Shown: positions 25,375 through 39,782 of the stretch, one piece after another
Numbering within the stretch: position 1 is the stretch's first letter
Layout of the letters: the number at the start of each line of letters is the position of its first letter
Source: a virus
Virus record (IMG/VR): IMGVR_UViG_3300020156_000051
Coordinates: 1 to 41,773 of that record
DNA: 41,773 nucleotides
Strand: one strand, 5' to 3'
Notes under the pieces: generated by a model
What the model was told of the DNA's origin: nothing
The model's input: only the letters and a program-made list of their open reading frames with translations
The model's database searches: none
Program-made: the position numbers and the translations under genes

Positions 25375-25376
25375 GA

Positions 25377-25940: not shown

Positions 25941-25999
25941 GATCCTCTTTTCTCGACTGTCGGTAGTACTTACATGGTTGATCAGCGGCAAGAACGACA

Positions 26000-26242: not shown

Positions 26243-26281
26243 CCCCTGAACCTCCGCACTAGCGTGACTCTGACTCCACAC

Positions 26282-26310
26282 ACTTAACCACACTGGTTAA
26301 CGGTATGGGT
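26282..26310 (-). promoter_or_regulatory. Promoter with TTAACCA/TGGTTAA operator
   Basis: Minus strand: -10 TTAAGT (26287-26282), 17-bp spacer, and ACCCAT at the -35 position. The palindrome TTAACCACACTGGTTAA (26284-26300) covers the spacer and -10. The -35 side (ATGGGT on the plus strand, then CACGG) is shared with the 29249 promoter. Confidence 0.6.
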
Positions 26311-26582
26311 CACGGGACGGTAACGTTGTGACTCTCGTACAGGTGCACGTGAAACCGCTTCTCCGTGCTCCACACCGCCGCCGTGCTCCACGGGTTCACC
26401 GGCTGCGCGTCCGGGTCGCGGACACATGCCCCACCAGGCCCCAGATGGCCCACGTACCGCAGAAGCACGCGGCGGGTACCCAGACACCCGGTGACCCTCA
26501 GGACGTCGTACACGGCCGGTAGGCCGCTGGAATCGACCCGTCGGGCGACCGCGCGCCCGACGGGTGCCGTCACGGTGGTCAT
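26310..26582 (-). CDS. Unknown protein, 90 aa
   Basis: Starts MTTVTAPVGRAVARRV and continues with a strand/helix mix (VYDVLRVTGCLGTRRVLLRY, STEKRFHVHLYESHNV). It ends exactly at the next promoter's -35 side. No family recognised. Confidence 0.62.
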   Translation of the reverse strand: MTTVTAPVGRAVARRVDSSGLPAVYDVLRVTGCLGTRRVLLRYVGHLGPGGACVRDPDAQPVNPWSTAAVWSTEKRFHVHLYESHNVTVP

Positions 26583-26585
26583 GAT

Positions 26586-26744
26586 CTAACCACCCGTTAC
26601 GACGTCGCGTGCTAATGAAAGTAAAGTGTCCAATTCATCCTCGGCGCCCTCGAACACGGACCAACCGTCAGAGACTGATGATCGTGCGCATACGTGCCAC
26701 TCTTGGTAGTACGGGGACCACATCACCGTCATGAGTTCTTCCAT
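26586..26744 (-). CDS. Small acidic protein, 52 aa
   Basis: ATG 26744 (MEELMTVMWSPYYQEWHV) has GGGAGG at good spacing. Two parts: an aromatic N-terminus and an acidic helix (EDELDTLLSLARDVV). Two bases downstream of the 375-aa gene. Function unknown. Confidence 0.62.
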   Translation of the reverse strand: MEELMTVMWSPYYQEWHVCARSSVSDGWSVFEGAEDELDTLLSLARDVVTGG

Positions 26745-26746
26745 GG

Positions 26747-27874
26747 TCAGACCTCCCACAGGAACACGGTGCGCGCGACGTACTTCACAGCGTCCTTGTG
26801 ACGGAGGTTGATCGCTGACGTGGCGGACTCGAACGTCCATTCGTTATCCTCGTACGAGTAGTACGCGTCCCGCACGGCGTCATCACCGTCCAACCCCCTG
26901 CGCGGGTCCTCACTGTCCAAAGTGGAATAGTAGGGGAGATGGTTGGCGGAGACACTGAGGTACGCGTCCACCAAGTCGTACGCGTCCTCGCAGGTTTCCC
27001 CGTCCACGGTCACCGGGAAATCGTCCTCGGAGAGGGGACACACGTCCCGCAAGTCACCTCGGATGTCCGAGCGAATGAACGCGTCCCACGTGTCCTCGGA
27101 CACTTCCCGTTCGTACTCGGACAGGGTTTCGTCGTTGAACACAGGGTAGTCGATCAGCCCTTCCAGCATGTTGACAAGACTGCGCATCCACATCAGTGCG
27201 TCCTCTGTGGACGGATATGGGTCATCCTGCTGATTGGCGAACGGCGACGTCTCGCCGACATATACTGTCGACACGTTGAACACGGAGCCATGGCCGCCCG
27301 TGTTCGGTTCCCGCACGGTGACCCCGGGATGACTCTCCAATGTGCGGTTATTGGCTGCGTCGTACTCGTTCCCGTGGTAATCGCCGCACGAGATGAGCGT
27401 AAGCTCGATGGGATCGAGTGCGTGCCCACAGACGTACGGGTTGTTGCCCACTGTGGACAGTTCTTCGCGGTCACGTGGCATGAGGGTTTCGGCACCATCG
27501 GACAAGATCAGCGCGCCGATCGTGTCCCGGGTGGGCATGGGGTACGTGTACGGCCACGACGGTTCCTGCGACAGGCGACGTCCCGACGATTCCCCTTCCG
27601 AAGCACACGACACGATGCGTTGCCACAGGTCCACTGCTTCCGCGAACTGTGCGGGGGTGTACTCCATGTCCGAATCATCCGTGTGATCCATGATGAGGGT
27701 AGTCTGGTCCACTATCGCCTCTGCCCAGCCGTCTTCGTACTCGTCACGAAGGATGACGTGAGCCCCACCATCGGTGAACCGTGTGAAGTAGCCAGTGAAC
27801 ATGGCAGACCCATAGAGCTTGCGTCCGCTCATTTTGAACTGTCGAGCGACTTCGGGAATGTCCGGGGTACTCAT
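26747..27874 (-). CDS. Large acidic protein of unknown function, 375 aa
   Basis: Asp and Glu outnumber Lys and Arg several-fold, spread along the whole chain (EYEDGWAEAIVDQTT, TDDSDMEYTPAQFAEA, DGDDAVRDAYYSYEDNEW). No catalytic motif is visible. Such charge could indicate a DNA-mimic or anti-restriction protein, but that is only a compositional guess. Contains GTCC/GGAC-type sites at 26915, 27200 and 27446. AAAGG upstream of the ATG. Largest gene of the 29.2-26.3 kb unit. Confidence 0.72.
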   Translation of the reverse strand: MSTPDIPEVARQFKMSGRKLYGSAMFTGYFTRFTDGGAHVILRDEYEDGWAEAIVDQTTLIMDHTDDSDMEYTPAQFAEAVDLWQRIVSCASEGESSGRRLSQEPSWPYTYPMPTRDTIGALILSDGAETLMPRDREELSTVGNNPYVCGHALDPIELTLISCGDYHGNEYDAANNRTLESHPGVTVREPNTGGHGSVFNVSTVYVGETSPFANQQDDPYPSTEDALMWMRSLVNMLEGLIDYPVFNDETLSEYEREVSEDTWDAFIRSDIRGDLRDVCPLSEDDFPVTVDGETCEDAYDLVDAYLSVSANHLPYYSTLDSEDPRRGLDGDDAVRDAYYSYEDNEWTFESATSAINLRHKDAVKYVARTVFLWEV

Positions 27875-27919
27875 ACCGGTAAACCTTTCTGATCTTGTTA
27901 GAGGTGGTCTGAGGGCCTG

Positions 27920-28138
27920 TCAGTCGATGGTCAGGTGATCGTCGACAAGACGCGCGTTCCCCTCCCAATTACGCTCGATCACTTCGGCGATGGTTTCCGA
28001 CTCACCAGTGAGGTAGTGCAGCGTCGTGGCGACCATGAGGTTGATCAGGTCCGTCGGCTCATCGGCGGTGATCTCCTCCACATCGTCAGCCGCCGCGTGG
28101 AGCGCGTCCCGAACTTGCTTCTCGAAATACGTAGCCAT
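27920..28138 (-). CDS. Unknown acidic helical protein, 72 aa
   Basis: Helical throughout (MATYFEKQVRDALHAAADDV, LINLMVATTLHYLTG, ETIAEVIERNWEG), with an acidic middle. Might be a small partner protein. No family recognised. Confidence 0.66.
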   Translation of the reverse strand: MATYFEKQVRDALHAAADDVEEITADEPTDLINLMVATTLHYLTGESETIAEVIERNWEGNARLVDDHLTID

Positions 28139-28153
28139 GATCGTTTTTCCTTG

Positions 28154-28681
28154 TCAGTCGTTGGGGCTGAGGAACATGGACCCGCTCACGCGGAGGAGGT
28201 TCGCGTGCTCCTCCGGAACCGAGATCATGAGCGCGCCCGGGTGGTGAATGTCGTCCTCGGGCAGTCGCTTCACGGTGAGCTGGAAAGTGGACGCGTCGGT
28301 GCTCACGCTCACCTGTACGGTGTCGCGTTCTTCGTCGATCCGAATGCACGCGTTGGTGAACCATTCAAGGGGCGCTTCGACGAGTTCGTGCGCGTCCGGG
28401 TGGTCGGTACTCCAGTCACACCGGCAATCCGGGTCCTCGCACACGTTGTTCGCCGACTGACACTCCATGCCCTCAGCGTCCTCGGGATAGTCGAAACGCT
28501 CCTCGCAAAGTTTGCACATCACGCGGCCCCGATCCTCGTTGTCGACCTCAACCTTACGGAGATCATCCGCGTAGGAACCAGGTTCCATGGCAATCTTCTC
28601 GCGGTAGCCGTCGGCAGGATCGAGGAACGTGGTGGCCATGTTGCTGGCAAGGTCACCGTTGATAGACGCGCTCATCCACAT
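28154..28681 (-). CDS. Zinc-finger-containing protein, 175 aa
   Basis: GAGAGGAC precedes ATG 28681. Central Cys cluster: VMCKLCEERF (C-x2-C), then MECQSANNVCEDPDCRCDW (four more Cys), followed by His residues. This looks like one or two zinc sites. The C-terminal half is beta-rich (TVQVSVSTDASTFQLTVKRL). The first 29 bases overlap the preceding small gene. Function unknown. Confidence 0.7.
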   Translation of the reverse strand: MWMSASINGDLASNMATTFLDPADGYREKIAMEPGSYADDLRKVEVDNEDRGRVMCKLCEERFDYPEDAEGMECQSANNVCEDPDCRCDWSTDHPDAHELVEAPLEWFTNACIRIDEERDTVQVSVSTDASTFQLTVKRLPEDDIHHPGALMISVPEEHANLLRVSGSMFLSPND

Positions 28682-28796
28682 GGGACAGTCCTCTCATGTC
28701 GTTGACTTCGGTGGTGTTGAGCTGTGCGAAAGGGTCGAGCATGCCGCCCGGGGGCTGGTGCAGCACCAGCCCCACGGGGATGTGCACGAGGATCAC
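28653..28796 (-). CDS. Possible small protein, 47 aa
   Basis: GTG start overlaps the upstream TGA (GTGA). Hydrophobic start (ILVHIPVGLVLHQPPGG) then polar. It runs 29 bases into the next gene, a long overlap, so it may instead be a translated leader. No family recognised. Confidence 0.42.
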   Translation of the reverse strand: MILVHIPVGLVLHQPPGGMLDPFAQLNTTEVNDMRGLSHVDERVYQR

Positions 28797-29212
28797 GTCT
28801 CCACGTACTTGGAAACGGACTCTCGCGCGGCCTGTAGTTCGAGTTTGGCCAGTTCGGTACGGAGTTCGTGCATACGCTCGTGGTCGCGGTCGTCGTGCGC
28901 GACCTGGTCCAGTAACGCGAGTTCGGAGATAATGTCCTTGGTGCGGGAGTAGGTGTCGTCCTCGGGCACCGTTTCCGCGTTGAGCGTGGCAGCGTGCTCC
29001 ACTGCTTCAGCGGTCTCCGGGTCGAGCCACTTCCACACGTCGTCAGCCATGTCGTACCCGTAGGCGTACGCCTTGCCCTCGCGGAGAAAGAACACGCGCT
29101 CCCCGTTCTCGTCGTTCTGCCGCACGACGTTGTACGCGTCCCGCATGAACTCGGGGAGTTCGTCGCGGAATAGGTGCTGGGGAGCGCTGTAGTCGGTCGG
29201 CGCGAGTTCCAT
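28793..29212 (-). CDS. Coiled-coil protein, first gene of an operator-controlled unit, 139 aa
   Basis: ATG 29212 (MELAPTDYS) has AAGGAA upstream and lies about 30 nt after the predicted start of transcription. N-terminal aromatic part (VFFLREGKAYAYGYD) and a long C-terminal coiled coil (IISELALLDQVAHDD, MHELRTELAKLELQAARESV). First gene after the 29249 promoter. No family recognised. Confidence 0.7.
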   Translation of the reverse strand: MELAPTDYSAPQHLFRDELPEFMRDAYNVVRQNDENGERVFFLREGKAYAYGYDMADDVWKWLDPETAEAVEHAATLNAETVPEDDTYSRTKDIISELALLDQVAHDDRDHERMHELRTELAKLELQAARESVSKYVET

Positions 29213-29248
29213 GGGATTCCTTCCGGTCGGGGGTGAAGCAACCAGGTC

Positions 29249-29277
29249 AGTTAACCACATCGGCTAAGGCTATGGGT
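29249..29277 (-). promoter_or_regulatory. Promoter with degenerate TTAACC/GGCTAA operator
   Basis: Minus strand: -10 TTAACT (29254-29249), 17-bp spacer, ACCCAT at -35, as in the 26282 promoter. The dyad TTAACCACATCGGCTAA (29251-29267) matches the 26284 site at 14 of 17 positions, and TATGGGT and ACGG beyond it are also conserved between the two. Confidence 0.6.
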
Positions 29278-29461
29278 AACGAAACGGTATACATCGGGGT
29301 GAGTTTCCGGGGAGGGTCCCCCATGCTGTGAGGACAGGAACGGGCACGCGGATAGACCGTAACCCGTTGACCTGTCAAGGGTCTTCCGTCACGTTGACGA
29401 TCTGTGATGATCAACAACGACCATGATCAAGTCCACTTAGGACATTCATGATCATTAACGT

Positions 29462-29514
29462 CGTTCAAGATCAACACTAGATCAAGATCGACTTCACTAG
29501 GTTGATCTTGAACG
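29462..29514. repeat. 14-bp perfect inverted repeat
   Basis: CGTTCAAGATCAAC and GTTGATCTTGAACG flank a 25-bp loop that itself begins and ends with CTAG. Together they could extrude as a cruciform in the GATC-rich region. Confidence 0.75.
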
Positions 29515-29516
29515 TG

Positions 29517-29576
29517 AAAAGACCCCCATGGATCCACTCCAGCGGCTAGTGGGCCGGAGGCGGAGGCACGGGGGTC
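29517..29576 (-). terminator. Possible long-loop terminator
   Basis: Minus strand: GACCCCC (29576-29570) pairs with GGGGGTC (29527-29521), followed by TTTTC. The loop is long (42 nt), so confidence is low. It would end the 35.8-29.6 kb unit. Confidence 0.4.
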
Positions 29577-29602
29577 GGGTAGCGCCAAGCCGGTGAGGGG
29601 GC

Positions 29603-29995
29603 CTATGGCTCCACTCCGGGCGCGGGCGGCGGGACAGCGCCAAGGTCGCGCAGAGGCTGGTAGACGGCCGAGTAGACGCGATTGCGCGCCTCGTGCAGAC
29701 TCGCCAGGTATCGTTCCGCGGAAGACTTCCACCAGAACCTCTTCGTCCGCACACGCACAGTCGGAGCAAATTGCTCCACTCCATATCGCGCGTGTGTCAG
29801 GTGCGCGACATGATGGCGCCGCCTCCATGTCGGAAGAAACTCGGCAAAGTAGAGAACCGGTCCCATAGCCGGAATCACCTGAATGATCTGTGTGTCATCG
29901 ATGAGATGGTGACGGCCCTCCGAACGGTGGGCGGATTCGTCTACATCGGACACAGGCCACTCTGAACGGTGGGCGGATTCCGGCTCTGGGGACAC
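29603..29995 (-). CDS. Unknown protein with ESAHRSE repeats, 130 aa
   Basis: The N-terminus has two copies of ESAHRSE, encoded by the same 17-bp direct repeat as the end of the upstream gene. The rest is an Arg/Trp-rich alpha/beta part (VLYFAEFLPTWRRRHHVAHL, RTKRFWWKSSAERYLASLHE) with a Pro-rich tail. No family recognised. Confidence 0.66.
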   Translation of the reverse strand: MSPEPESAHRSEWPVSDVDESAHRSEGRHHLIDDTQIIQVIPAMGPVLYFAEFLPTWRRRHHVAHLTHARYGVEQFAPTVRVRTKRFWWKSSAERYLASLHEARNRVYSAVYQPLRDLGAVPPPAPGVEP

Positions 29996-30036
29996 GATGC
30001 CTACTCCTGTGACTCTGACGAACGGTGGGCGGATTC
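29922..30036. repeat. Three direct repeats of GAACGGTGGGCGGATTC
   Basis: Exact 17-bp copies at 29922-29938, 29964-29980 and 30020-30036; copies 2 and 3 share further flanking bases (CCGG). They cross the boundary between two genes and encode ESAHRS units in both. Confidence 0.85.
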
Positions 30037-30363
30037 CGGTTCGCGGTATACGAAATGTCCACGAGCAGACTTAGTCTGCTCCTTGATTGCGGCCTTGAAC
30101 TTCTCAATCTCCTGCGCCGTTGGATCTTCGGTGGTCTGATGCCGGATCTCCTGCGGCGGCGTGACAAGCGCCTCGACCATTGGGAGCATGATCTTCAGGG
30201 CCGCGGCGATCTCGTACAGGCTCGCAGCGGCCGACGCCTGGAACAGCACATCGGCGCGTCGGAGAGACTGCTCATGGTGCCCAGCGCCTTCGAACGTATC
30301 CTGCCCTTCAGACAGGTACAGTGCGGCGTAGTCGACCGGCCCGCTTTCCTCCTCAGTGCTCAT
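30001..30363 (-). CDS. Unknown helical protein with ESAHRS tail, 120 aa
   Basis: ATG 30363 (MSTEEESGPVDY) is in ATGA overlap with the preceding gene. Helical centre (ADVLFQASAAASLYEIAAAL, EIEKFKAAIKEQ). Its last residues repeat ESAHRSS from the 17-bp repeat. Possibly related by duplication at its end to the next gene. Function unknown. Confidence 0.66.
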   Translation of the reverse strand: MSTEEESGPVDYAALYLSEGQDTFEGAGHHEQSLRRADVLFQASAAASLYEIAAALKIMLPMVEALVTPPQEIRHQTTEDPTAQEIEKFKAAIKEQTKSARGHFVYREPESAHRSSESQE

Positions 30364-30470
30364 TTGCCTGCGCCCTTTCCATGCTTCTCCTCGAACTCCT
30401 TGTCGTGGCGTTCGATGTCTTTCTGAGCTTTCTCCCACGCCTTTTCAGCGTCAGTCTTATCGTCGCTCAC
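30360..30470 (-). CDS. Short charged helical protein, 36 aa
   Basis: GTG start 30470 with GGAGG. Almost all Lys, Glu and Asp in helical register (DAEKAWEKAQKDIERHDKEF). Both junctions are coupled. Small size limits certainty. Confidence 0.5.
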   Translation of the reverse strand: MSDDKTDAEKAWEKAQKDIERHDKEFEEKHGKGAGK

Positions 30471-30472
30471 GA

Positions 30473-30562
30473 CTATTCCTCCATACTCCGGCCGAGGGAT
30501 TCCAGGATCTCCTCGTCGGTCAGTTCGCGGTCTGGATCACGTTCGGGGTTCGTCTTACTCAT
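30473..30562 (-). CDS. Very small acidic protein, 29 aa
   Basis: Complete gene in ATGA overlap with the 116-aa gene upstream. Acidic with LTDEEILESLGRSMEE at its end. Function unknown; could be a leader-like peptide. Confidence 0.45.
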   Translation of the reverse strand: MSKTNPERDPDRELTDEEILESLGRSMEE

Positions 30563-30909
30563 GCTGTCACCTTCGTCTTGATCTCGTACTTGCGCTCCAG
30601 GAGATCGGCGACCTCCTGGGGGATCGCCAGCAGGTTCGGCGGTGGCGTGAGCCCACGTTCCTCGAACCATTTCTGGTTGTTGTCCCGGAGGACTTGCTCC
30701 AGGAACGCCTCGTACCCTCGCTCCAGCTCGACCACGCGCTCCGGCAAAAGCACCGACGGCGCCGTGCACGCTCGGTGCACCCAGTCGCCGTAGCAGAAGC
30801 GGCAGAGCCACACCGTGGCGCCGGGGAACTTGCACACCCACTTGATGACCGCGGGCCGCTCGTCCCAGTTGCACCGGGTCTGCTTCGTCGTCACTCCGTC
30901 GGCGGCCAC
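30559..30909 (-). CDS. Zinc-binding protein, 116 aa
   Basis: GTG 30909 has GGAG at correct spacing. Metal ligands RCNWDE, WVCKFPG, WLCRFCYGDWVHRAC: Cys pairs plus His for a small zinc ribbon in the first 50 residues. The C-terminal half is helical (ERVVELERGYEAFLEQVLRD). Function unknown. Confidence 0.66.
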   Translation of the reverse strand: MAADGVTTKQTRCNWDERPAVIKWVCKFPGATVWLCRFCYGDWVHRACTAPSVLLPERVVELERGYEAFLEQVLRDNNQKWFEERGLTPPPNLLAIPQEVADLLERKYEIKTKVTA

Positions 30910-30965
30910 AGAAACTCCGTCTCCTTGACTTCGGCCCAGGCGATGGACTCCTGGTTGTATTTCAT
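30891..30965 (-). CDS. Tiny protein, 24 aa
   Basis: ATG 30965 with GGAGGACGCG, an excellent ribosome site, and ATGA coupling to the upstream gene. Overlaps the next gene's start by 19 bases. Function unknown; could be a leader peptide for the zinc protein. Confidence 0.45.
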   Translation of the reverse strand: MKYNQESIAWAEVKETEFLWPPTE

Positions 30966-31078
30966 CGCGTCCTCCGCTTCCAGCGAATCACGAGTGTCGG
31001 GAGTGGACAGACGTAATGGTGCGTGTCGCCACGATAGTAGCCAATCCACCAGTCCCGCCGCTCGAAGTAGATCGTCAT
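30962..31078 (-). CDS. Small Trp/Tyr-rich basic protein, 38 aa
   Basis: Pattern ERRDWWIGYYRGDTHHYVC, then LPTLVIRWKRR, resembling short phage proteins of the form D-x-W-x-G-x-Y...C-L-P-x-x-V-x-R-W. ATGA overlaps on both sides. Likely real despite its size; function unknown. Confidence 0.62.
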   Translation of the reverse strand: MTIYFERRDWWIGYYRGDTHHYVCPLPTLVIRWKRRTR

Positions 31079-31482
31079 CGGAGCTCCACCTTCGCTTCCC
31101 TTACACCGGGCATTTTCCGGAGATCGCTCAACTCAGTGTGTGCGTCTTCGGCGTTCGCGCCGGGGATCGGGTACTCGTCCGTGCTGCCGTCCTTGTACAG
31201 GGCGACCATCCACCACGTCGGCTTCCAGGTCTTGATCTCTTGCGCCTTCTGGCTGAGGTGATAGGCCACGTTGTTCGGCGCGATCATCCCGCTCCGGGAG
31301 ATGTACCGGTGCGCCAGCTTCTCCAGCTCGGTCGCGGCCACCTGGTGCACGAGCGTGTAGATGTCGGTCAGCTCCAGGGGATGGACCCGAAGATAGCTGG
31401 GAGCTAACCGGTTGATCGTGTCCGATGTGGACTCACCGACGTACCGTGCCCAGTCGTGATTCGGAACTCCGGCGTCGGTCAT
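31075..31482 (-). CDS. Unknown protein, 135 aa
   Basis: Mainly helical (ELTDIYTLVHQVAATELEKL, AYHLSQKAQEIKTWK) with a beta-like end (KMPGVREAKVELR). Contains a GTCC/GGAC-type site (31420-31432) near its 5' end. ATGA and TGATG overlaps. No family recognised. Confidence 0.68.
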   Translation of the reverse strand: MTDAGVPNHDWARYVGESTSDTINRLAPSYLRVHPLELTDIYTLVHQVAATELEKLAHRYISRSGMIAPNNVAYHLSQKAQEIKTWKPTWWMVALYKDGSTDEYPIPGANAEDAHTELSDLRKMPGVREAKVELR

Positions 31483-31682
31483 CAGTCCCCCTTGTCGAGT
31501 TTGAGCGTGAGCTGGACCGTTCCGCTCCGATGAATGGCTTCATGCGCGACGTACATGCGCCCGGCCGTCACGATGATGTAACTGTCCTCGGGCACGTACG
31601 AGGACTCACTCTTATTCGTCTCGACGTCCTCGACCGTCACCTTGATCGGGCTGAGTTTCCTGCTCGTCTTCGGTTCCGCCAT
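31482..31682 (-). CDS. Unknown beta-rich protein, 66 aa
   Basis: Strand-rich sequence (SPIKVTVEDVETNK, SYIIVTAGRMYVAHEA, GTVQLTLKLDK). The ATG follows GAGGTGAAC. It lies partly inside the preceding 50-aa frame (71-bp overlap). No family recognised. Confidence 0.65.
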   Translation of the reverse strand: MAEPKTSRKLSPIKVTVEDVETNKSESSYVPEDSYIIVTAGRMYVAHEAIHRSGTVQLTLKLDKGD

Positions 31683-31764
31683 TGCAGTTCACCTCGTGTA
31701 CGTCTCGTGCGGTTCTGGATAGGAACGGTTGCCCGCACCCGACTTCGCAGTAGTAGGTCGGCAT
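31612..31764 (-). CDS. Possible C2HC zinc-finger protein, 50 aa
   Basis: ATG overlaps the upstream TGA (TGATG). Ligands CEVGCGQPF...VHEVNC form a C-x3-C...H-x3-C finger; the rest is an acidic Gln-rich tail. It overlaps the following gene by 71 bases in another frame, so its C-terminal part is uncertain. Confidence 0.5.
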   Translation of the reverse strand: MPTYYCEVGCGQPFLSRTARDVHEVNCNGGTEDEQETQPDQGDGRGRRDE

Positions 31765-32048
31765 CAGTCTTCTGATCTCCATTTCTCGCTATACCGCATA
31801 TCGTGAGGATGGAAGACATTCCACAGGTTCAGCGAGTCCTCGGCGGGCTGAACGTGGCTGGCGTAGAGAAACGTACCGTCCACTCCGTACACATCGATCG
31901 AGGTGTGCTGCCCGATCGCGCGATTGACGCTGTCCGCGGCGTACGTGGTCGCGATCTGGATGATCTGGTTGAACGCCGGGTGGGTCGGGTCCACCCAGTG
32001 ACTGAGATCCTCCTGGAACCGCTCCTCAGCCATTTCCTCAGCGCTCAC
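31764..32048 (-). CDS. Unknown protein, 94 aa
   Basis: Acidic N-terminal helix (MSAEEMAEERFQEDLSHW), then IIQIATTYAADSVNRAIG and a Tyr/His-rich end. No family recognised. Overlaps the upstream gene end by 11 bases. Confidence 0.66.
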   Translation of the reverse strand: MSAEEMAEERFQEDLSHWVDPTHPAFNQIIQIATTYAADSVNRAIGQHTSIDVYGVDGTFLYASHVQPAEDSLNLWNVFHPHDMRYSEKWRSED

Positions 32049-32385
32049 GGGGCACCTTCCTCCAATCCTCGACGACGATGACCCGGCGCTTGTACACCGG
32101 AGTGCCGTTGTTCTGTTGATGCTTGATCCATTCGGCGAGCGGGTAGACCTGTTCGAGTTCGGGATCGTTCGGCCGGGTCAGCATCCGGCCACCGGTGAAC
32201 TCTGTAGCATGCTCCACGATCGTGTCGCTCGGCGGTGTCCAGCCTGCCTTGAGCAGAGCCGCCACCATCCGGTCCGCATCACCGCGGAGGCCGGGCGGCG
32301 GGGAGCCGATGTACGACGATGTCATCGCCTTGTGCGCCAGCTCGATGGCCTCGTCACGCTCGCGCTCGAACTCGTCAGCACTCAC
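32038..32385 (-). CDS. Unknown protein, 115 aa
   Basis: GTG start, 11-base overlap with the upstream gene. Helical start (EFERERDEAIELAHKAM), a Gly/Pro turn, then DRMVAALLKAGW and a basic tail (KRRVIVVEDWRKVPRER). No family recognised. Confidence 0.66.
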   Translation of the reverse strand: MSADEFERERDEAIELAHKAMTSSYIGSPPPGLRGDADRMVAALLKAGWTPPSDTIVEHATEFTGGRMLTRPNDPELEQVYPLAEWIKHQQNNGTPVYKRRVIVVEDWRKVPRER

Positions 32386-33417: not shown

Positions 33418-34007
33418 GTCCGGTTTCCCTTCTGGTAACGCTCGGCCGCGGCGCGCTGGACAGCGGCTTCCCATTCCTCTTCGGTCAGGGTCTCGACGAT
33501 CGTGCCCATGTGATTGGTCCAGCTCTCGTAGGCTTCGGCGCGCTCGTAGAATGCCTGCACACCGTCGCTGTCGGTCGCCAGCGCTCCGGCGGGCACCGTA
33601 TCTTCGTCCCACCAGACCCGCCGCGGCCGGAGCCAGCCCATGTGCACAGCCGCGTCTTCGAAGTTCGCCATGCCGATGAGCTGGAGCCCGCAGTGGGGCT
33701 CGTGAGCGTCGTTGGTTTCGAGCAGCCCCGACGCCGCGCAGGTGCAGTCACCGGTTTGCTGGACGACGGCGACCTGCGGCCCAGCGGCGAGCTGCGCGGC
33801 TTCGAGCGCTCGCCGGAGCAGCGACGCGTTGTTCGCGTCGGCCTCGGCCTCAACAGCCCGCCATTGACGCTCTTGCTCCTCGGTCATGACTCGTTTCCCG
33901 GTGACGTGATCAAGGTACGAGTAATAGCCGACGTGGGCCGTGAACGCGGGCTCCATGTGCTCGCGCAGCACGTTCCACAGGGCGTTGATCTGCTTCTCGG
34001 TGATCAC
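33414..34007 (-). CDS. Unknown Cys-cluster protein, 197 aa
   Basis: GTG 34007 overlaps the upstream TGA. An N-terminal part (INALWNVLREHMEPAF, ERQWRAVEAEADANNAS) leads to GDCTCAASGLLE and EPHCGLQL, three Cys and His that may bind metal, then a Trp-rich helical end (MGWLRPRRVWWDED, LTEEEWEAAVQRAAAERY). No family recognised. Confidence 0.68.
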   Translation of the reverse strand: MITEKQINALWNVLREHMEPAFTAHVGYYSYLDHVTGKRVMTEEQERQWRAVEAEADANNASLLRRALEAAQLAAGPQVAVVQQTGDCTCAASGLLETNDAHEPHCGLQLIGMANFEDAAVHMGWLRPRRVWWDEDTVPAGALATDSDGVQAFYERAEAYESWTNHMGTIVETLTEEEWEAAVQRAAAERYQKGNRT

Positions 34008-35257
34008 AGCTTGTCCATCTCCTTCTCCAACCGCTCCTTGGTCGCGATGCTGCGCAACCACTTCGCGAACTTGCGCTGTTCGTCGTCCTCGTCCGCCCGC
34101 TCCAGACCCTCGGCGAGCTCATCGGCGAAGTTAGCCCGAATCTCCCGGGAAAGCTGCGCCATGGCTTTTTCGCCGGAGTTGTGCTCGAACATGTCCCGCT
34201 CGCGTACGACCCGCCGGGCTGCGTCCTGTGCGGACTCACCCGGGGTGTAACCATCGTCGCTCTCGAACTCATCCTCCGCTTCGAGGATCTCGCGCATTTC
34301 CCTACGGAACCTGGAAAAGTCCTCGGCCGAGCTCTGGTACATTGCGGCGTTGCTCTTGGCCACCTGCACCACCTCATGCACCTTGGCCAACAGTGTGTTG
34401 CCGCGGTAATCCTTGAGGATCTCCAGGAGTCTGTTCGCCGCGTGGATCTCCAAGGAGTCCGGGCCAGTCGCCTCGGTAGAATTCACCTTGGTACGGAGTT
34501 CGTTGTTCTCCCGGGCCATGGCCTTGACCGCGTCGAGCAGCTTCAGTTCCGGCTCACCGACCACTTCCCGGATACCGATGCACAGCTCGTCGAGTTCCTC
34601 GATCTCCTTCCGGAGATTGTTGCGCTCGGTCACCAGTCGCTGAACCGCGTCCACTGTGGACTCGCGCTGATTCTCACCGACCCCGTCCCACTCGGACACC
34701 GCGCCGGTGAGCCGACGGACCTCCTGCATCTCGCCGAACAGTTGGTCGTACCTCTCGCCGAGCAGCTTCGTCTGATTGGGGAAAAGCTGTGCCTTCGATG
34801 CCTTGGTCAGTTCTTCGAGCGCCACCTGGTGATTGACCTCGATCTTGTCGACGGGGACCACAATCGTGTTGGGGTCGCCCTCGACCGGTGTACCCATCTG
34901 CTTGAGCCACTCCGGAACGGACCAGGGTTGACTGGCCTGGGTCAGGTAGTTCATGGCCTTGGCGGGAGTGGCCGGTGTCGGGCGCGTGTCGTTAGCCACG
35001 CGAATCTGCCAGCCGTACTTTCCCTTCTCCACGACACCGGCGCTGAAGTAATCGACCCCGTGATGTGGCAGCACGACCGCGACATTATGGCCCACTTTCA
35101 CAGGCCACACATTGACGGGGGTCGGCTGAAGCTCCTTCTGCGGCACGGTCTTCAGGACCTCTCGGCCCATGTCCCAGATGTTCTGGTCGGCCATGTCGTC
35201 GGCGTGCACGCGGATCGCGCCGACAACCTTACGCAGGATCTTGTCGTAGTCGCTCAC
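34004..35257 (-). CDS. Long coiled-coil protein, 417 aa
   Basis: GTG 35257 in GTGA overlap. N-terminal beta part about 55-130 (VGHNVAVVLPHHGVDYFSAG, YGWQIRVANDTRP) then long helical repeats (VQRLVTERNNLRKEIEELDE, LLDAVKAMARENNELRTKV, FRREMREILEAEDEFE). The C-terminus is acidic then basic (EQRKFAKWLRSIATKERLEK). Possibly a scaffold or SMC-like helper; no signature confirms it. Contains an exact GTCCACTGTGGAC site (34649-34661). Confidence 0.7.
   Translation of the reverse strand: MSDYDKILRKVVGAIRVHADDMADQNIWDMGREVLKTVPQKELQPTPVNVWPVKVGHNVAVVLPHHGVDYFSAGVVEKGKYGWQIRVANDTRPTPATPAKAMNYLTQASQPWSVPEWLKQMGTPVEGDPNTIVVPVDKIEVNHQVALEELTKASKAQLFPNQTKLLGERYDQLFGEMQEVRRLTGAVSEWDGVGENQRESTVDAVQRLVTERNNLRKEIEELDELCIGIREVVGEPELKLLDAVKAMARENNELRTKVNSTEATGPDSLEIHAANRLLEILKDYRGNTLLAKVHEVVQVAKSNAAMYQSSAEDFSRFRREMREILEAEDEFESDDGYTPGESAQDAARRVVRERDMFEHNSGEKAMAQLSREIRANFADELAEGLERADEDDEQRKFAKWLRSIATKERLEKEMDKL
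34649..34661. repeat. Dispersed palindrome GTCCA-N3-TGGAC, exact copy
   Basis: GTCCACTGTGGAC inside the long coiled-coil gene; the arms extend to 6 bp. Confidence 0.75.
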
Positions 35258-35451
35258 GGCTTCTCCTCCCCGGCGAACTTGTGCGCGGCGTCCTGAATGG
35301 CCCACGCTCCCTCGACGAACGCCCGGCCCTCCTTGGTCCGCTTGTCGTGCGGGCACTGGTCCACGGCCCATGTGCAGATCTCGTGCAGGTCTTCGAGGTC
35401 AATGAGAATGATCTTGTCCCGGTTGCGGGACGGGATCTTGATGGCGGTCAT
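35254..35451 (-). CDS. Unknown protein, 65 aa
   Basis: Hydrophobic-acidic segments (DKIILIDLEDLHEICTWAV, EGRAFVEGAWAIQDAAHKF) and a CPHDKR in between. ATGA/GTGA coupled. No family recognised. Confidence 0.66.
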   Translation of the reverse strand: MTAIKIPSRNRDKIILIDLEDLHEICTWAVDQCPHDKRTKEGRAFVEGAWAIQDAAHKFAGEEKP

Positions 35452-35660
35452 TTATGAACCTTTCGTGTGCCTGTGCATGTTGGACATTGGCCGGGGACTC
35501 CGCCACTGCACAATGGGCATGGGATATCGGTTTTAGCGTTTCCGTTCAGTGCACCGCTTCCACTGCATGGGGAACAATCTCCGTTGACGCAATCCGGACA
35601 ATCTTTGGTGTTCCTCGGACCTTCGTCCGGTGAGGCTGCGATTTTCTGCCAGAAGGCCAT
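35448..35660 (-). CDS. DnaJ-type zinc-finger protein, 70 aa
   Basis: Repeated CPxCxGxG-like units: CPDCVNGDCSPCSGSGA and CPLCSGGVPGQCPTCTGT, eight Cys in four pairs, as in the central domain of DnaJ. No J domain. Could serve as a zinc or protein-binding module. Function in the phage unknown. Confidence 0.75.
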   Translation of the reverse strand: MAFWQKIAASPDEGPRNTKDCPDCVNGDCSPCSGSGALNGNAKTDIPCPLCSGGVPGQCPTCTGTRKVHK

Positions 35661-35846
35661 CTACTTGTTCGACCATCCGCGTTTGTCGGCGTACGCCTGA
35701 GATCCCGGAACCGGCTTGTCGGGATTGCGGCCGGTGGTATCGCGGTCGAGTTCCTTCTGCTTGGTCACTGCCTCGGCCCGTTTCGTCTCAGGGCTCTTGG
35801 AAGTGTTCTTGCCCGACGGGTTGTGAACTTCGCCCTTCTTGGTCAT
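35661..35846 (-). CDS. Small basic protein, first gene of an operator-controlled unit, 61 aa
   Basis: Lys-rich and probably disordered (MTKKGEVHNPSGKNTSKSPE, TKQKELDRDTTGRNPDKP), ending AYADKRGWSNK. Starts about 50 bp downstream of the 35905 promoter and abuts the DnaJ-type gene (TAG-ATG). Function unknown. Confidence 0.62.
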   Translation of the reverse strand: MTKKGEVHNPSGKNTSKSPETKRAEAVTKQKELDRDTTGRNPDKPVPGSQAYADKRGWSNK

Positions 35847-35904
35847 CGCTGCGAGGCCCTTCCTTGATCGGAAACGTTGGTAACTCTGAACTTCGTGTAC
35901 GAGC

Positions 35905-35933
35905 AGTTAACCAGACTGGTTAAGTCAGCGCAA
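35905..35933 (-). promoter_or_regulatory. Promoter with perfect TTAACCAG/CTGGTTAA operator
   Basis: Minus strand: -35 TTGCGC (35933-35928), 17-bp spacer, -10 TTAACT (35910-35905). The palindrome TTAACCAGACTGGTTAA (35907-35923) has 8-bp perfect arms about one central base and occupies the spacer. The GGTTAAG...GCAACCCC arrangement is shared with the 37538 promoter. Confidence 0.62.
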
Positions 35934-35937
35934 CCCC

Positions 35938-36123
35938 TTACGGGACATCGAGGCCGAGCATATCGAGCAAGAGCGCACAGTCCTGTTCGTCCTGCGCCGA
36001 CCGCGCCACGTACTGGGTGGCCAGTACCCGTTCAGCTGGTGTGGATTTGGAGGCGACAAGGTTCAGCCTCCGCTCAGGGATCGGCGCCCCGTGCGGATCC
36101 CTAGGGTCTCGGATCACCGTCAC
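35938..36123 (-). CDS. Unknown protein, 61 aa
   Basis: I use GTG 36123, where AAGGAC lies at good spacing; the longer ATG 36153 has no ribosome site and overlaps the upstream gene by 53 bases. Basic start (TVIRDPRDPHGAP), helical end (ERVLATQYVARSAQDEQDC, LLLDMLGL). No family recognised. Confidence 0.58.
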   Translation of the reverse strand: MTVIRDPRDPHGAPIPERRLNLVASKSTPAERVLATQYVARSAQDEQDCALLLDMLGLDVP

Positions 36124-36295
36124 TGGTCTGTCCTTCTTCGGTCGTCTCGACATGGATCTTGAGCGGGCACCAGGACTCGAACTCCTCGGCCTGCTCCGGG
36201 GTGATGCCCTCCGGCGGCGTGACCCGGCTCCAGGGCGTCATTTCCCGTGTCCGCGGGAAGTCACCCCAGACCACCCAGACGTGGACCCTGGTCAC
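36101..36295 (-). CDS. Unknown protein, 64 aa
   Basis: GTG 36295 with GAGGAC upstream. Beta-start (MTRVHVWVVWGDFPR) then Pro/Glu-rich (WSRVTPPEGITPEQAEEFE) and CPLKIHVETTEEG. No family recognised. Confidence 0.62.
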   Translation of the reverse strand: MTRVHVWVVWGDFPRTREMTPWSRVTPPEGITPEQAEEFESWCPLKIHVETTEEGQTSDGDPRP

Positions 36296-36298
36296 CGC

Positions 36299-36679
36299 TC
36301 AGTCCTCTTTGAACTCGGTGCCGCCGACAATTTCGTCCTGGTCGTTTTTGACGTAGTAGATTTCCACGTCGCCATCAGTGTCGTAGTCGTCTCCGGCTTT
36401 CGGGCCGAAATCCCCCAGCTTGGCGGCAAGCGTTTCGAGATCTTCCACGGTCGCGTCTTCTGGCGCCTCGAACTCGACGATCTGAGACATGGCCTGGATC
36501 AGGTATGCGGTGTACTTCTTCATCAATTTCTCCTTCAAGTCGGTGCGACGCCGCGCCTTCTCCACACAGCAGGGTCCGACGAACCAGCAGCGACCCGGGT
36601 ATCGCAGACTCTCGAACATGAACTGCTGCCCGCCGCTCGGCTGGAATCTCTGGCAGTCACAGCACTTCCATGCTCGCAT
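36299..36679 (-). CDS. Cys-rich N-terminus plus acidic domain, 126 aa (possible internal start)
   Basis: The longest frame starts at ATG 36679, coupled to the upstream stop (TGATG); it carries WKCCDCQRFQP and CWFVGPCCVEK, a possible zinc site. Codon 53 is an ATG at 36523 preceded by an excellent AAGGAG, so a 74-residue acidic protein (MKKYTAYLIQAMSQIVEFEA onward) is probably also or mainly made. The C-terminal domain with TVEDLETLAAKLGDFG may act alone. Function unknown. Confidence 0.6.
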   Translation of the reverse strand: MRAWKCCDCQRFQPSGGQQFMFESLRYPGRCWFVGPCCVEKARRRTDLKEKLMKKYTAYLIQAMSQIVEFEAPEDATVEDLETLAAKLGDFGPKAGDDYDTDGDVEIYYVKNDQDEIVGGTEFKED

Positions 36680-36924
36680 CAGAACACCGTAACGGGTCGA
36701 TCCTTGAACGCCTTCTCGACGGCGTTCGGGTCGAGACAGATGATTTGTCCCAAAGGGACAAAAGGACTTTCCTTGACCTCCCAGTAACTGGGCCAGTAAA
36801 GGATCCGGTCCGCCACCCCACGTACCCGGTCGATGTCGTCAGGGTGGCAGAAGAAGATCCGGGCGTGTTCCTTCTGGATCCGCTCGATCTCGATCACCAG
36901 CTCATTAAGCGTCGACATGGTCAC
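36679..36924 (-). CDS. Unknown protein, 81 aa
   Basis: GTG 36924 in GTGA overlap with the upstream gene; ATG 36918 two codons later is an alternative. Helical start (TLNELVIEIERIQKEHARIF), then ADRILYWPSYWEVKESPFVP and a C-terminal helix. No family recognised. Confidence 0.64.
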   Translation of the reverse strand: MTMSTLNELVIEIERIQKEHARIFFCHPDDIDRVRGVADRILYWPSYWEVKESPFVPLGQIICLDPNAVEKAFKDRPVTVF

Positions 36925-37091
36925 CAGTCTCTTTCCCGCGCGACGTCGTACTGCGCGTCGGCGTCATCGTCCTGCATGCTGTGTTCCGGGCACTCCGGAT
37001 CCGGCATACGTTGCTGGAGCCGGTACCGCGGGTCGCCGAACGGCACGTAGGCACACGTGCATTCGACGTCCAGCGAGTCTTCAGGCGACAC
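36921..37091 (-). CDS. Small Cys-containing acidic protein, 56 aa
   Basis: GTG 37091 overlaps the end of the previous gene by 11 bases and has GGGGGTG upstream. VECTCAYVPFGDPRY and PDPECPEHSMQDDDADAQ give three Cys, one His and an acidic tail. Possible metal binding. Function unknown. Confidence 0.58.
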   Translation of the reverse strand: MSPEDSLDVECTCAYVPFGDPRYRLQQRMPDPECPEHSMQDDDADAQYDVARERDW

Positions 37092-37497
37092 CGGGCACCC
37101 CCAGCTCCCGCGCGGTCATGCGCAACAGCCGCTGAGCCTCCGCCAACGACGCGATCGCATGGATCGGGCTGTCGAGCAGCCGGAGCTCCTGGGCGTGCGT
37201 CAGATCCGCGTCCAGGGCCTCGAAGTGCTCGCGCATGTCCTCGAACACGTCCGACGTGCGGGTGAACTCGACGACCTCCTGAAGCTCCACTCCGACCCAC
37301 CGTCCGTGTGGATCGTGGTGGTTGAGGCTCTTCCAGATGAACACGGCCTGGTCGCCGGTCCGGGTCCAGCACTCGAAGTCGTCCCGGTGGTACAGCTCGC
37401 CGGTGTACGTGTTCCGCATCGCGCGGATGAACGTCGGCGGCTTGGGCGAATTCGGAGGGAAGATGCGACCGGTTCTGTGAGGCTCCTGCTCGGACAT
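37081..37497 (-). CDS. Unknown protein, first gene of an operator-controlled unit, 138 aa
   Basis: ATG 37497 (MSEQEPHRTGRIFPP) has GAGAGGACC and lies about 33 nt after the predicted transcription start. Aromatic middle (DDFECWTRTGDQAVFIWKSL), then helices (DVFEDMREHFEALDADLT, AIASLAEAQRLLRMTARELG). No family recognised. Confidence 0.7.
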   Translation of the reverse strand: MSEQEPHRTGRIFPPNSPKPPTFIRAMRNTYTGELYHRDDFECWTRTGDQAVFIWKSLNHHDPHGRWVGVELQEVVEFTRTSDVFEDMREHFEALDADLTHAQELRLLDSPIHAIASLAEAQRLLRMTARELGVPGVA

Positions 37498-37537
37498 TAT
37501 GGTCCTCTCATCGGTTTCCCGTGATCTCGGACCCCCG

Positions 37538-37566
37538 ACTTTACCTCTACGGTTAAGCGATGGCAA
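37538..37566 (-). promoter_or_regulatory. Strong promoter with TTTACC/GGTTAA operator
   Basis: Minus strand: -35 TTGCCA (37566-37561), 17-bp spacer, -10 TAAAGT (37543-37538), a near-consensus pair. The spacer carries the dyad TTTACC-TCTAC-GGTTAA (37540-37556). It lies between a terminator and the 37497 start. Confidence 0.72.
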
Positions 37567-37577
37567 CCCCCGAATAA

Positions 37578-37617
37578 AAGAAGCCCCCGGGAGTGCGTGC
37601 TCCCGGGGGTTTTTCGC
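37578..37617. terminator. Bidirectional rho-independent terminator
   Basis: CCCCCGGGAG and CTCCCGGGGG form a 10-bp perfect stem around TGCGTG; TTTTT follows on the plus strand and CTTCTTTTA on the minus. It stops the 39.4-37.7 kb leftward unit and separates it from the next promoter. Confidence 0.85.
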
Positions 37618-37670
37618 GTAGGTTTTGGCTGCCACACCTGAACCTGACGCTGACGACATTACCACGGCGG

Positions 37671-38453
37671 TTATACGCCGTCACGCATCGGCGGTTGTTC
37701 GATCTGCATCACAGACTGCGGTTGGGTGAGCTCGCGCAGGACCCGGGGTACGACCTGAGGGATCAGACGGCGCTGCTCCACCGTCAGGCCGAGCGCATCG
37801 AAAATCTGGTTCAGGGCACCGACCAAGTTCATGCCCTGTTCCCGTGCCAGCCGGACCCTTTCCTCAGCCACCCCGGCATCAAGCGCCGTCTTCGCGACCT
37901 TGGTGAGCAGGATCCGTTCCTTGTGGTAAAGCTCCAGCCACTCCTGCTCGACCGCGGTCAGTGCGCGGAGTTTCTGGTCCTTGCCCTGGCCCTCGACGAG
38001 CTGCCAGAAGTTGATTCGGTCGGCGATCCAAGCGACGTGTCCCCCGGCGCGACGGACCTCTTGCAACAGTGCCTCGTGCGGGTCAAGGTCGATTGGCCCG
38101 CCGTACCCGTAGCTGTTTGTCATGCGATCGATGATCTCCCCACCCATGTAGCGCGCGGCGTTCGTCCGCAGCGTCGGCGTGTTCCCGCCGTGGAAGGAGC
38201 ATCGGCCCCAGCCTTCATGATCAGTGCGTTGCCCCGCTGGTAGCTGGCAGTGCAGCCCATTCGACTTCTCCGCGTAGCAGATATTCTGGCCCTGCTCGTT
38301 CTTCGGGTGCTCCCGAAACGTCGCGCTGTCCTTCTCCGCTCTTGCGGGGTCGGTTTTTCGCGCCGACTGCCGGTTGACCTCGGACGGCTTTTCCGGGTTG
38401 TTCTGCCAGCTCTTGTTCGTTGTCCGCGGATGCTTTCTCTTCTGTGGCGGCAT
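37671..38453 (-). CDS. terS: Terminase small subunit-like protein, 260 aa
   Basis: Basic N-terminus followed by a Cys/His cluster (QNICYAEKSNGLHCQLPAGQ, EGWGRCSFHGG), then helices LYHKERILLTKVAKTALDAG, EERVRLAREQGMNLVGALN and VEQRRLIPQVVPRVLREL. This combination (zinc-like cluster plus helices with an A-L-x-A-G-V-x-E-x-x-V motif) is typical of actinophage small terminases, which recognise packaging sites. It lies far from the large subunit in this window. ATG 38453 has GGAGGAG; the first 77 codons overlap the WhiB-like gene in another frame. Other DNA-binding roles are possible. Confidence 0.68.
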   Translation of the reverse strand: MPPQKRKHPRTTNKSWQNNPEKPSEVNRQSARKTDPARAEKDSATFREHPKNEQGQNICYAEKSNGLHCQLPAGQRTDHEGWGRCSFHGGNTPTLRTNAARYMGGEIIDRMTNSYGYGGPIDLDPHEALLQEVRRAGGHVAWIADRINFWQLVEGQGKDQKLRALTAVEQEWLELYHKERILLTKVAKTALDAGVAEERVRLAREQGMNLVGALNQIFDALGLTVEQRRLIPQVVPRVLRELTQPQSVMQIEQPPMRDGV

Positions 38454-38841
38454 TTTTCTCCTCCTGCACCCGCTTAGTCCGCTGCTTCTCCACCATAGCT
38501 TGGTTGATCAACCGTCCACCATGGATTCCCGTCTGCTCGGCTTCGAGCGCCTCGGCGAAGCAAGCTTCCCGGACCGGGCACGGATTGTCGAACCCCGGCG
38601 CCCCGTTGCAGATCCGCAGTGCCTTCGCCTCACGGTAATTGATCTCTGCGATCTGTGCGGGCGTCTGGCCCACCCGGCTCTGATACAGGAACAGGTCGCC
38701 GTCGGCCGGGGTGCACTTGGCGGCTTCCCGGATCACGTAACCGAGCTTCGGCCGATGCAGCCAGGGCGGCAGGGTCACCTTCCGGCCACCCGCGTCCGGG
38801 AACAGCCCTCGGAACCCTTCCAGCCCGCCGCGCCGCGTCAC
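38221..38841 (-). CDS. WhiB-like iron-sulfur protein with long C-terminal tail, 206 aa
   Basis: Core: AAKCTPADGDLFL, then ALRICNGAPGFDNPCPVREA, then CFAEAL and GIHGG. Four Cys with a G-x-x-G-G turn is the WhiB [4Fe-4S] family, here with the Cys-x8-Cys insertion common in phage versions. WhiB proteins are actinobacterial redox-sensitive regulators that bind sigma factor. GTG 38841 overlaps the upstream stop (GTGA). After the core a charged tail continues for about 90 residues and overlaps the terminase-like gene by 233 bases. Confidence 0.82.
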   Translation of the reverse strand: MTRRGGLEGFRGLFPDAGGRKVTLPPWLHRPKLGYVIREAAKCTPADGDLFLYQSRVGQTPAQIAEINYREAKALRICNGAPGFDNPCPVREACFAEALEAEQTGIHGGRLINQAMVEKQRTKRVQEEKNAATEEKASADNEQELAEQPGKAVRGQPAVGAKNRPRKSGEGQRDVSGAPEERAGPEYLLRGEVEWAALPATSGATH

Positions 38842-39407
38842 GAACCACCTCGCTGGCACTCCGGCTGGAACTGGAAGCACACGCGCCCGGTCACGGGATC
38901 GTAGTTGAAGACCGTGAGCTCCTCGTCGAACGTCAGGCCGGTCTCGGCGAAACACTGGCTCGCCGTCCCGCGGCATGTCGCCGCTGGCGCCTCCTGAATC
39001 GATTCAGGAAGGGAGGTTTTCGGCGGCGAAACAATCCGGTCAGCCGATGAGCCCGGGGAAGTCCGTGAGCGGCCGGTCGATGCGGCCGTGGACGGGGCAG
39101 CGGACGCCACCTTCCGGAACGAACTCTTGGGGGACGAGGATGAAGGTCTCTGGACGGGGGCACTCGCAGAGGGCTTCTCCACCACGATCACAGGGGCCGT
39201 CGGGAGGGAAGTCTCGATCGTTGAAAGCGGCCAGGGCTGTTGCAGTGAACTGCTCTCGGGGTGTGCGGGGGTCCATGCGTCTGCCTCCGGAGTGTCGCGC
39301 TGAAACAGGGCGATGACGGCGAGCAGTGCCGTCAGGATCGGAACAAGCAGTATCTGGGCGCCGTGGTAGCGCGGACTGCGTACCCTCGGCTTGTAATGCT
39401 TTCCCAT
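38838..39407 (-). CDS. Membrane-anchored Ser/Pro-rich protein, 189 aa
   Basis: Basic start (MGKHYKPRVRSPRYHGAQ), one transmembrane helix (ILLVPILTALLAVIALF), a long Ser/Pro/Thr/Ala linker and a C-terminal domain with ATCRGTASQCFAETG and VTGRVCFQFQPECQRG (four Cys). ATG 39407 follows a GAGG. Inside its linker another frame encodes the 78-aa gene, so the linker may partly reflect that gene's shadow. First gene after the 39445 promoter. Confidence 0.55.
   Translation of the reverse strand: MGKHYKPRVRSPRYHGAQILLVPILTALLAVIALFQRDTPEADAWTPAHPESSSLQQPWPLSTIETSLPTAPVIVVEKPSASAPVQRPSSSSPKSSFRKVASAAPSTAASTGRSRTSPGSSADRIVSPPKTSLPESIQEAPAATCRGTASQCFAETGLTFDEELTVFNYDPVTGRVCFQFQPECQRGGS
39040..39276 (-). 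CDS. Nested Cys/His protein, 78 aa
   Basis: A separate frame inside the membrane-protein gene, with GGAGG well placed before ATG 39276 and GC-rich third codon positions. GPCDRGGEALCECPRPETF and VRCPVHGRIDRPLTDFPG give four Cys and a His, a likely zinc ribbon. It is probably the better-supported coding frame in this stretch. Confidence 0.65.
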   Translation of the reverse strand: MDPRTPREQFTATALAAFNDRDFPPDGPCDRGGEALCECPRPETFILVPQEFVPEGGVRCPVHGRIDRPLTDFPGLIG

Positions 39408-39444
39408 GGCGGGCCTCGTTCTGTCGTAGGGATTACTGAGCGCG

Positions 39445-39473
39445 ACTTTACCTCCCAGGCTATGCACGGTCAA
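39445..39473 (-). promoter_or_regulatory. Strong leftward promoter beside the HTH gene
   Basis: Minus strand: -35 TTGACC (39473-39468), exactly 17-bp spacer, -10 TAAAGT (39450-39445). The spacer includes TTTACC-TCCCA-GGCTAT (39447-39463), a weak form of the operator dyad. It drives the 39.4-37.7 kb unit. Confidence 0.72.
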
Positions 39474-39482
39474 CTTCACCCA

Positions 39483-39511
39483 GTAACATCGCTTAACCTG
39501 ACCGGTAAGGT
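39483..39511 (+). promoter_or_regulatory. Promoter of the HTH gene, probably leaderless
   Basis: Plus strand: -35 GTAACA (39483-39488), 17-bp spacer, -10 TAAGGT (39506-39511). The operator dyad TTAACC-TGACC-GGTAAG (39493-39509) fills the spacer and part of the -10. The ATG at 39519 starts 7 bases after the -10, so the transcript would be leaderless or nearly so. Confidence 0.65.
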
Positions 39512-39518: not shown

Positions 39519-39782
39519 ATGCAGAACACGGAAATCGCGGCCATGCTGGACGTGCACCCCGTCACACTGAGTCGCTGGCGCATCGGCGATCGGTACCCGA
39601 GCCGGGACATGATGCTCCGCATCGAGCACGAGCTCGGCTGGCCTGTCGAACAGCAGATGGACGCGTTCAATCGCAGTGTGCCGGAGAACAAGACCGCGTA
39701 CGCCGTCGAGCTCAAGCAGTTCCTGAAGGAAGTATGGGATGTTCCTGATCCCGCCGAAGAGTCCAGTGTGGAGGATGCATGA
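39519..39782 (+). CDS. Helix-turn-helix repressor candidate, 87 aa
   Basis: Residues 4-40 form a Cro/CI-type HTH: NTEIAAMLDVHPVTLSRWRI, then GDRYPSRDMMLRIEHELGW. The C-terminal half may dimerise (AYAVELKQFLKEVWDVP). Its own promoter and five leftward promoters carry related dyads, so it is the natural candidate to bind them. No peptidase domain, so induction would not be LexA-like. ATGA overlap to the resolvase gene. Confidence 0.8.
   Translation: MQNTEIAAMLDVHPVTLSRWRIGDRYPSRDMMLRIEHELGWPVEQQMDAFNRSVPENKTAYAVELKQFLKEVWDVPDPAEESSVEDA

Follow-up and report, generated by a model that had tools for sequence, protein, structure and literature searches.

The sequence considered here is the whole of IMG/VR virus record IMGVR_UViG_3300020156_000051 (41,773 bases; 'the window'), which comes from an uncultured actinobacterial phage and codes for a terminase, portal, helicase, DNA polymerase, polymerase/primase and RuvC-like resolvase. 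Upstream of the resolvase gene lies a gene for an 87-residue helix-turn-helix (HTH) protein, and the divergent region beside it contains two copies of a dyad, related to TTAACC-N5-GGTTAA, that recurs in other predicted promoters and is the subject of this account. No tail genes were seen among the window proteins that were scanned and the window is therefore probably a fragment of a genome of ~60 kb. The closest annotated terminases belong to Actinoplanes phage phiAsp2 (50% identity) and Streptomyces phage TurkishDelight (47%); tblastn of the HTH protein gave no match in either of these phages and megablast of the window gave none among phage records.

Two uncultured relatives, G001 (IMGVR_UViG_3300048927_000480, 60,386 bp) and G002 (IMGVR_UViG_3300003320_000767, 59,210 bp), are collinear with the window in reverse orientation and their conserved proteins are mostly 30-70% identical to those of the window. 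Scans of viral contigs with the HTH protein alone, the polymerase/primase, an HTH alignment and an alignment of the protein encoded at 37671-38453 recovered G001 and G002 as the only family members. A portal alignment added only short contigs from the structural region, and a RuvC alignment matched 52 loci, none of which has a clearly related HTH gene except those of G001 and G002.

Operators in predicted promoters

A preliminary description of the window had reported six promoters carrying the dyad. All six sites were found at the coordinates it gave; on the minus strand (five sites) these coordinates mark the 3' end of the -10 hexamer. Two sites, 35907 and 26284, do have perfect arms, and those of the remaining four are degenerate, as had been described. 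TTAACC-N5-GGTTAA occurs in the window twice exactly, four times with up to one mismatch, five times with up to two and 13 times with up to three, against means of 0, 0.007, 0.14 and 3.0 in 300 dinucleotide shuffles; the motif is far commoner than chance would give. In a blind count of gapped palindromes by arm the signal was drowned by GC-rich words. A position weight matrix (PWM) scan, which the preliminary description had proposed, placed the member sites at the top of the window. When each site was excluded from the matrix that scored it, all seven promoter sites (the six and a further one, 37658) ranked seventh or better in the whole window. A site absent from the training set, 10927, ranked eighth, and no other position of the window scored above any of these eight. 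Site 10927 has no good -10 in the register used by the others and is a probable eighth operator.

The six sites first reported lie entirely within non-coding DNA, which makes up 8.8% of the contig in the gene set used here. The right arm of each covers the start of a -10 hexamer (TTAACT, TTAAGT, TAAAGT or TAAGGT) read toward the downstream gene, and the base that ends the -10 (position 19), which falls outside the dyad, is T in 7/7 sites, 37658 included. The palindrome is present in at least seven predicted promoters. The coincidence of the right arm with the -10 is what would be seen if the shared sequence were a promoter consensus, reflecting the preference of a sigma factor with no regulator involved. 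However, the left arm falls in the spacer, for which no such preference of sigma is known, exact 12-base dyads occur and the left arm varies with the genome; this explanation is hardly credible.

Matching arm pairs number 6/6 at 26284 and 35907, 5/6 at 29251, 37540 and 37658, 4/6 at 39493 and 3/6 at 39447 and 10927. The earlier suggestion that operators are of graded quality survives as a pattern in the three genomes: the copies adjacent to the HTH gene are of low symmetry (2-4/6 overall, 2-3/6 for the pair in G001 and G002), and the 6/6 copies are at other promoters. If symmetry mirrors affinity, the regulator's own promoters would close last; arm symmetry is only a proxy, since the right arm has to work as a -10 too.

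Operators and promoter classes in the relatives

Counterparts of the window operators were assigned in G001 and G002 by gene order (Table 1). The operators of both relatives have a different 19-bp sequence, GTNRTCCANNNGSTAACGT, in the same register over the -10, and the best of those in G001 are perfect dyads, ACGTTACC-N5-GGTAACGT. Between the window and the relatives the geometry is kept (17 bp, N5 centre, CC/GG core) and the outer arms are changed. A PWM from one relative ranks most of the corresponding sites of the other at the top, the weakest being G001 59902 at rank 16, and of the 2.9 million viral contigs scanned G001 and G002 are the only ones in which the pattern was found more than once. 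The comparison of positions in three genomes bears out the proposal of a single operator at many promoters that is linked to the HTH gene. It points to a recognition sequence that shifted across the whole operator set while the positions stayed the same.

In the window, promoters near the HTH gene (class A) carry a -35 of TTG or GT type at 17 bp; in the relatives it is mostly of TTG type, at 17-18 bp, and is not clear at the HTH promoter. A spacing of exactly 17 bp had been claimed for all six original promoters. This is so at 39447, 39493, 37540 and 35907, and also at 37658, but not at the distal (class B) promoters 26284 and 29251, where ACCCAT, a hexamer unlike a sigma-70 -35, occupies the 17-bp position and GTGACC or GTTACC stands at 20 bp. 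In these two promoters and their counterparts GTNACC is found at 20 bp in every case, mostly inside the longer element GTKACCCAW. This element stays constant while the operators differ from genome to genome, which makes the HTH protein improbable as its reader; a sigma factor of the host or the phage WhiB-like protein encoded at 38221-38976 may recognise it instead. That the WhiB-like protein, produced from the operon behind operator 39447, acts at class B promoters is a conjecture.

The lack of a sigma-70-like -35 at 17-18 bp in class B, together with the invariable GTNACC at 20 bp, would also be compatible with activation by the HTH protein, at least at these promoters, from an operator in the 20-bp spacer as with MerR-type activators. 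The same operator nevertheless overlaps the -10 of class A promoters with an ordinary 17/18-bp spacing, and the protein matches HTH_3 and Xre folds and not MerR. Activation is very unlikely.

The HTH protein as proposed regulator

All three genomes have a pair of operators in the divergent region beside an 87-93-residue HTH gene that is upstream of the RuvC-like gene. Each genome has one match to HTH_3, that of the window protein scoring 25.0 bits against a curated cut-off of 23. An AlphaFold2 model of the 87-residue protein (predicted local distance difference test score 83.7) has a compact helical HTH fold with an Xre-type core and one HTH domain, and compares with the cores of CylR2 and P22 c2 in the PDB at 1.1 A over 42-44 columns, although Foldseek E-values were weak (>0.1). 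In the model the first helix of the usual five-helix Xre domain seems to be missing. This short N-terminus is taken to be real in the relatives because an in-frame stop is found closely upstream of the ATG, with three codons between. A MerR-type identity was ruled out by both profile (HTH_3) and fold (Xre). Since the -10 TAAGGT of the HTH gene is identical in three genomes and is separated from the ATG by 7 bp (window) or 6 bp (relatives), a leaderless mRNA is predicted. A constant looping distance for the pair of operators was also considered and rejected, their spacings by coordinates being 46, 36 and 52 bp in the three genomes.

The sequence of the recognition helix is VHPVTLSRW in the window protein and VHRGTLFHW in those of both G001 and G002, with differences at exposed positions. 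In this one contrast the helix differences track those in the outer operator arms, with the CC/GG core largely kept, which is suggestive of a protein and its sites having changed together.

The reading that we consider likely is of an autoregulated Cro-like repressor that shuts dispersed early promoters, probably in a lytic phage. The 87-residue protein would bind each 17-bp operator as a dimer, the two half-sites facing the same side of the helix at a distance of 11 bp, and the bound dimer would cover the spacer and the start of the -10 and so block RNA polymerase. Made right after infection from its own leaderless promoter, the protein would accumulate and the early promoters would be shut, those with perfect operators probably first and its own divergent pair last. 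The regulon would extend beyond the accessory arm to which it had been assigned in the preliminary description, taking in the HTH gene itself, the WhiB-like operon and perhaps the RecE-like gene.

The sequences show the sites, their location in predicted promoters, their recurrence in G001 and G002 and the altered operator sequence there; binding by the HTH protein, its dimerisation, repression, the order and timing of shut-off and the lifestyle are inferred from them. Several points weigh against the reading. Operator 10927 lies within coding sequence, in the 3'-terminal part of the helicase gene, the left half-site of the relatives' operator (GTNRTC) is weakly symmetric with the right half, and the covariation of protein and operator involves two operator classes only. 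The contigs are possibly fragments, the completeness of G001 and G002 is uncertified and an integrase could lie outside the window.

A further point is that the window also encodes the WhiB-like regulator. Its gene lies in the first leftward operon, and the dyads might be bound by this protein, or by a host regulator, and not by the HTH protein; GTKACCCAW, constant in class B promoters while operators differ, may be recognised by a second factor or by a sigma factor of the host. However, a dyad with an 11-bp half-site spacing fits an Xre dimer, the two operators flank the HTH gene in every genome of the three, and a host factor is not obviously expected to change its site set-wide. Binding by one of these other factors is unlikely.

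Alternatively the phage could be temperate and the HTH protein its prophage-type immunity repressor, with lytic genes silenced in lysogeny. Temperate actinophages of cluster A and R4 do have dispersed repressor sites (PMC6550527, PMC10276819) and the operators described here sit over predicted early promoters. Tyrosine or serine integrases and ParA were nevertheless not found, Phage_integrase (PF00589), Resolvase (PF00239) and AAA_31 (PF13614) having no match in the window, G001 or G002. Genomes from 84,980 species of bacteria and archaea gave no relative of the HTH protein or the portal, and the Arthrobacter cluster AK phages, the closest in culture to carry a related HTH protein, are reported to be lytic (PMC11468179). 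For these reasons an immunity repressor is rather unlikely, silencing of the prophage kind is not favoured and a lytic off-switch is preferred, with the reservation that the contigs may be incomplete.

A fuller version of the preferred reading can be put forward tentatively. In a lytic actinophage lineage a single-domain Cro-like protein may serve as a regulon-wide early off-switch, protein and ~8 operators may have shifted recognition sequence together with positions fixed, and the class of promoters with GTKACCCAW may need another factor, perhaps the WhiB-like protein, itself a product of the regulon. The evolution of phage immunity poses the open question of how the specificity of a regulator and of its many scattered sites can change in step. 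The present family would offer a small case of it, with one 87-93-residue protein and about eight or more sites per genome whose positions are fixed and whose sequence has changed, and one that is approachable with synthetic DNA and purified protein without isolation of the phage. If the reading is true, genome-wide repressor sites need not imply lysogeny.

Among the remaining features (Table 1), operator 37658, which had been overlooked, overlaps the stop codon of the gene at 37671-38453. Its promoter is followed by ~77 nt, an intrinsic terminator and the next promoter-operator (37540). The same layout is present in G001 (48306-48430, ~125 nt) and G002 (46162-46255, ~94 nt) with different hairpins. 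An Rfam search of the candidate RNA found no family at gathering score, and the simplest reading is of a small RNA that would be under the same repressor.

Two other sequence elements were observed in the window. A second, unrelated dyad, TGTCCA-N3-TGGACA, has 18 sites (up to two mismatches) against 1.5 expected, and 16/18 are in 22864-36760, a region of small minus-strand genes, often within coding sequence. It resembles the actinobacterial DnaA box. Non-coding DNA at 29380-29520 contains many GATCAA-type direct and inverted repeats, one pair being perfect over 14 nt, and is a possible replication origin or regulatory site.

Table 1. Operators, genes and promoter elements of the window, with operator counterparts in the two relatives
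Feature	Positions	Strand	Details	G001	G002
Operator 39493, TTAACC-N5-GGTAAG, HTH promoter	39493..39511	+	-10 TAAGGT 39506-39511; -35-like GTAACA 39483-39488	46260 (same -10)	44093 (same -10)
87-residue Xre/Cro-like HTH protein, proposed regulator	39519..39782	+	HTH_3 above cut-off; phrog_5414
RuvC-like resolvase, downstream of HTH gene	39779..40360	+	phrog_159, PF02075; relatives 52%, 50% identical
Operator 39447, first leftward operon promoter	39445..39463	-	-10 TAAAGT; -35 TTGACC 39468-39473	46298	44147
First leftward gene, function unassigned	38838..39410	-	26-37% identical to corresponding G001, G002 genes
WhiB-like transcription factor, first leftward operon	38221..38976	-	PF02467 above cut-off; phrog_12112
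Conserved protein	37671..38453	-	weak likeness to phiAsp2 Pas58 (annotated small terminase); relatives 56%, 53% identical
Operator 37658 (seventh), ATTACC-N5-GGTTAT	37656..37674	-	-10 TAATGT; -35 GTGACG 37679-37684; spacing 17	48281 (directly past orthologue of 37671-38453 gene)	46137 (directly past orthologue of 37671-38453 gene)
Candidate ~77-nt RNA	37575..37651	-	between promoter 37658 and intrinsic terminator 37584-37609
Operator 37540, promoter of gene 37081-37500	37538..37556	-	-10 TAAAGT; -35 TTGCCA 37561-37566	48439	46261
Operator 35907, perfect arms, promoter of gene 35661-35846	35905..35923	-	-10 TTAACT; -35 TTGCGC 35928-35933	49045	46990
Operator 29251, class B promoter of gene 28793-29212	29249..29267	-	-10 TTAACT	55936	53655
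Class B upstream element GTTACCCAT	29272..29280	-	GTTACC, 20 bp from -10
Operator 26284, perfect arms, class B promoter of gene 26000-26242	26282..26300	-	-10 TTAAGT	58249/59902/203/708 (distal candidates; one-to-one pairing unsettled)	58293/57742 (distal candidates; one-to-one pairing unsettled)
Class B upstream element GTGACCCAT	26305..26313	-
Operator 10927 (probable eighth), upstream of RecE-like 10134-10868	10925..10943	-	3' end of helicase gene; PWM rank 8	15654	14137

Comparison with known systems

Lambda Cro/CI, P22 c2 and CylR2 have in common with the proposed regulator the Xre fold and dyad operators over promoters. They act as local switches with clustered operators, whereas the regulon of the window is spread along the genome. 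The c repressor of phiC31 has inverted repeats of ~17 bp at many loci, often at early promoters. It is a much larger protein with in-frame forms, however, and belongs to a temperate phage with a serine integrase.

The nearest cultured homologues of the HTH protein are those of Arthrobacter cluster AK (Korravirus), for example HunterDalle gp24, with 38-44% identity over ~52-71 residues. They have a longer N-terminus and their gene lies near a helicase gene. A TTAACC-type operator set was not found in HunterDalle. Four promoters of this phage (21003, 23219, 25347 and 33401) have in common another inverted repeat, GGCTTG-N9-CAARCC, which covers their -35 and spacer. Two of the four are also present in Pumancara, and these repeats are possibly the site set of gp24.

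Dispersed repressor sites are known in actinophages from the R4 repressor-stoperator system and from the 13-mers of Rhodococcus cluster CA (PMC10276819, PMC10986025). The likeness lies in the dispersal of the sites; these are temperate phages with an immunity repressor, and the WC1 site YGWCTATTGTCAA is unrelated to the window operator. In cluster A mycobacteriophages (L5, Bxb1, TipsytheTRex) one repressor acts at operators or stoperators genome-wide (PMC6550527, PMC9283540). As in the window there are many sites with one consensus (eight here), and the site consensus changes with the repressor between relatives. Cluster A sites are, in contrast, asymmetric 13-mers, 20-30 in number, oriented with transcription and mostly outside promoters, where they stop elongation, and they are bound by a 183-residue two-domain monomer (PMC6550527, PMC9283540). 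The window has ~8 dyads, seven of them in predicted promoters, and an 87-residue single-domain protein. Because site symmetry, site location and protein architecture differ, the window system falls outside the definition of the cluster A type. Many-site repressors are thus already known in actinophages (cluster A, CA and R4), and the system of the window is a variant on them.

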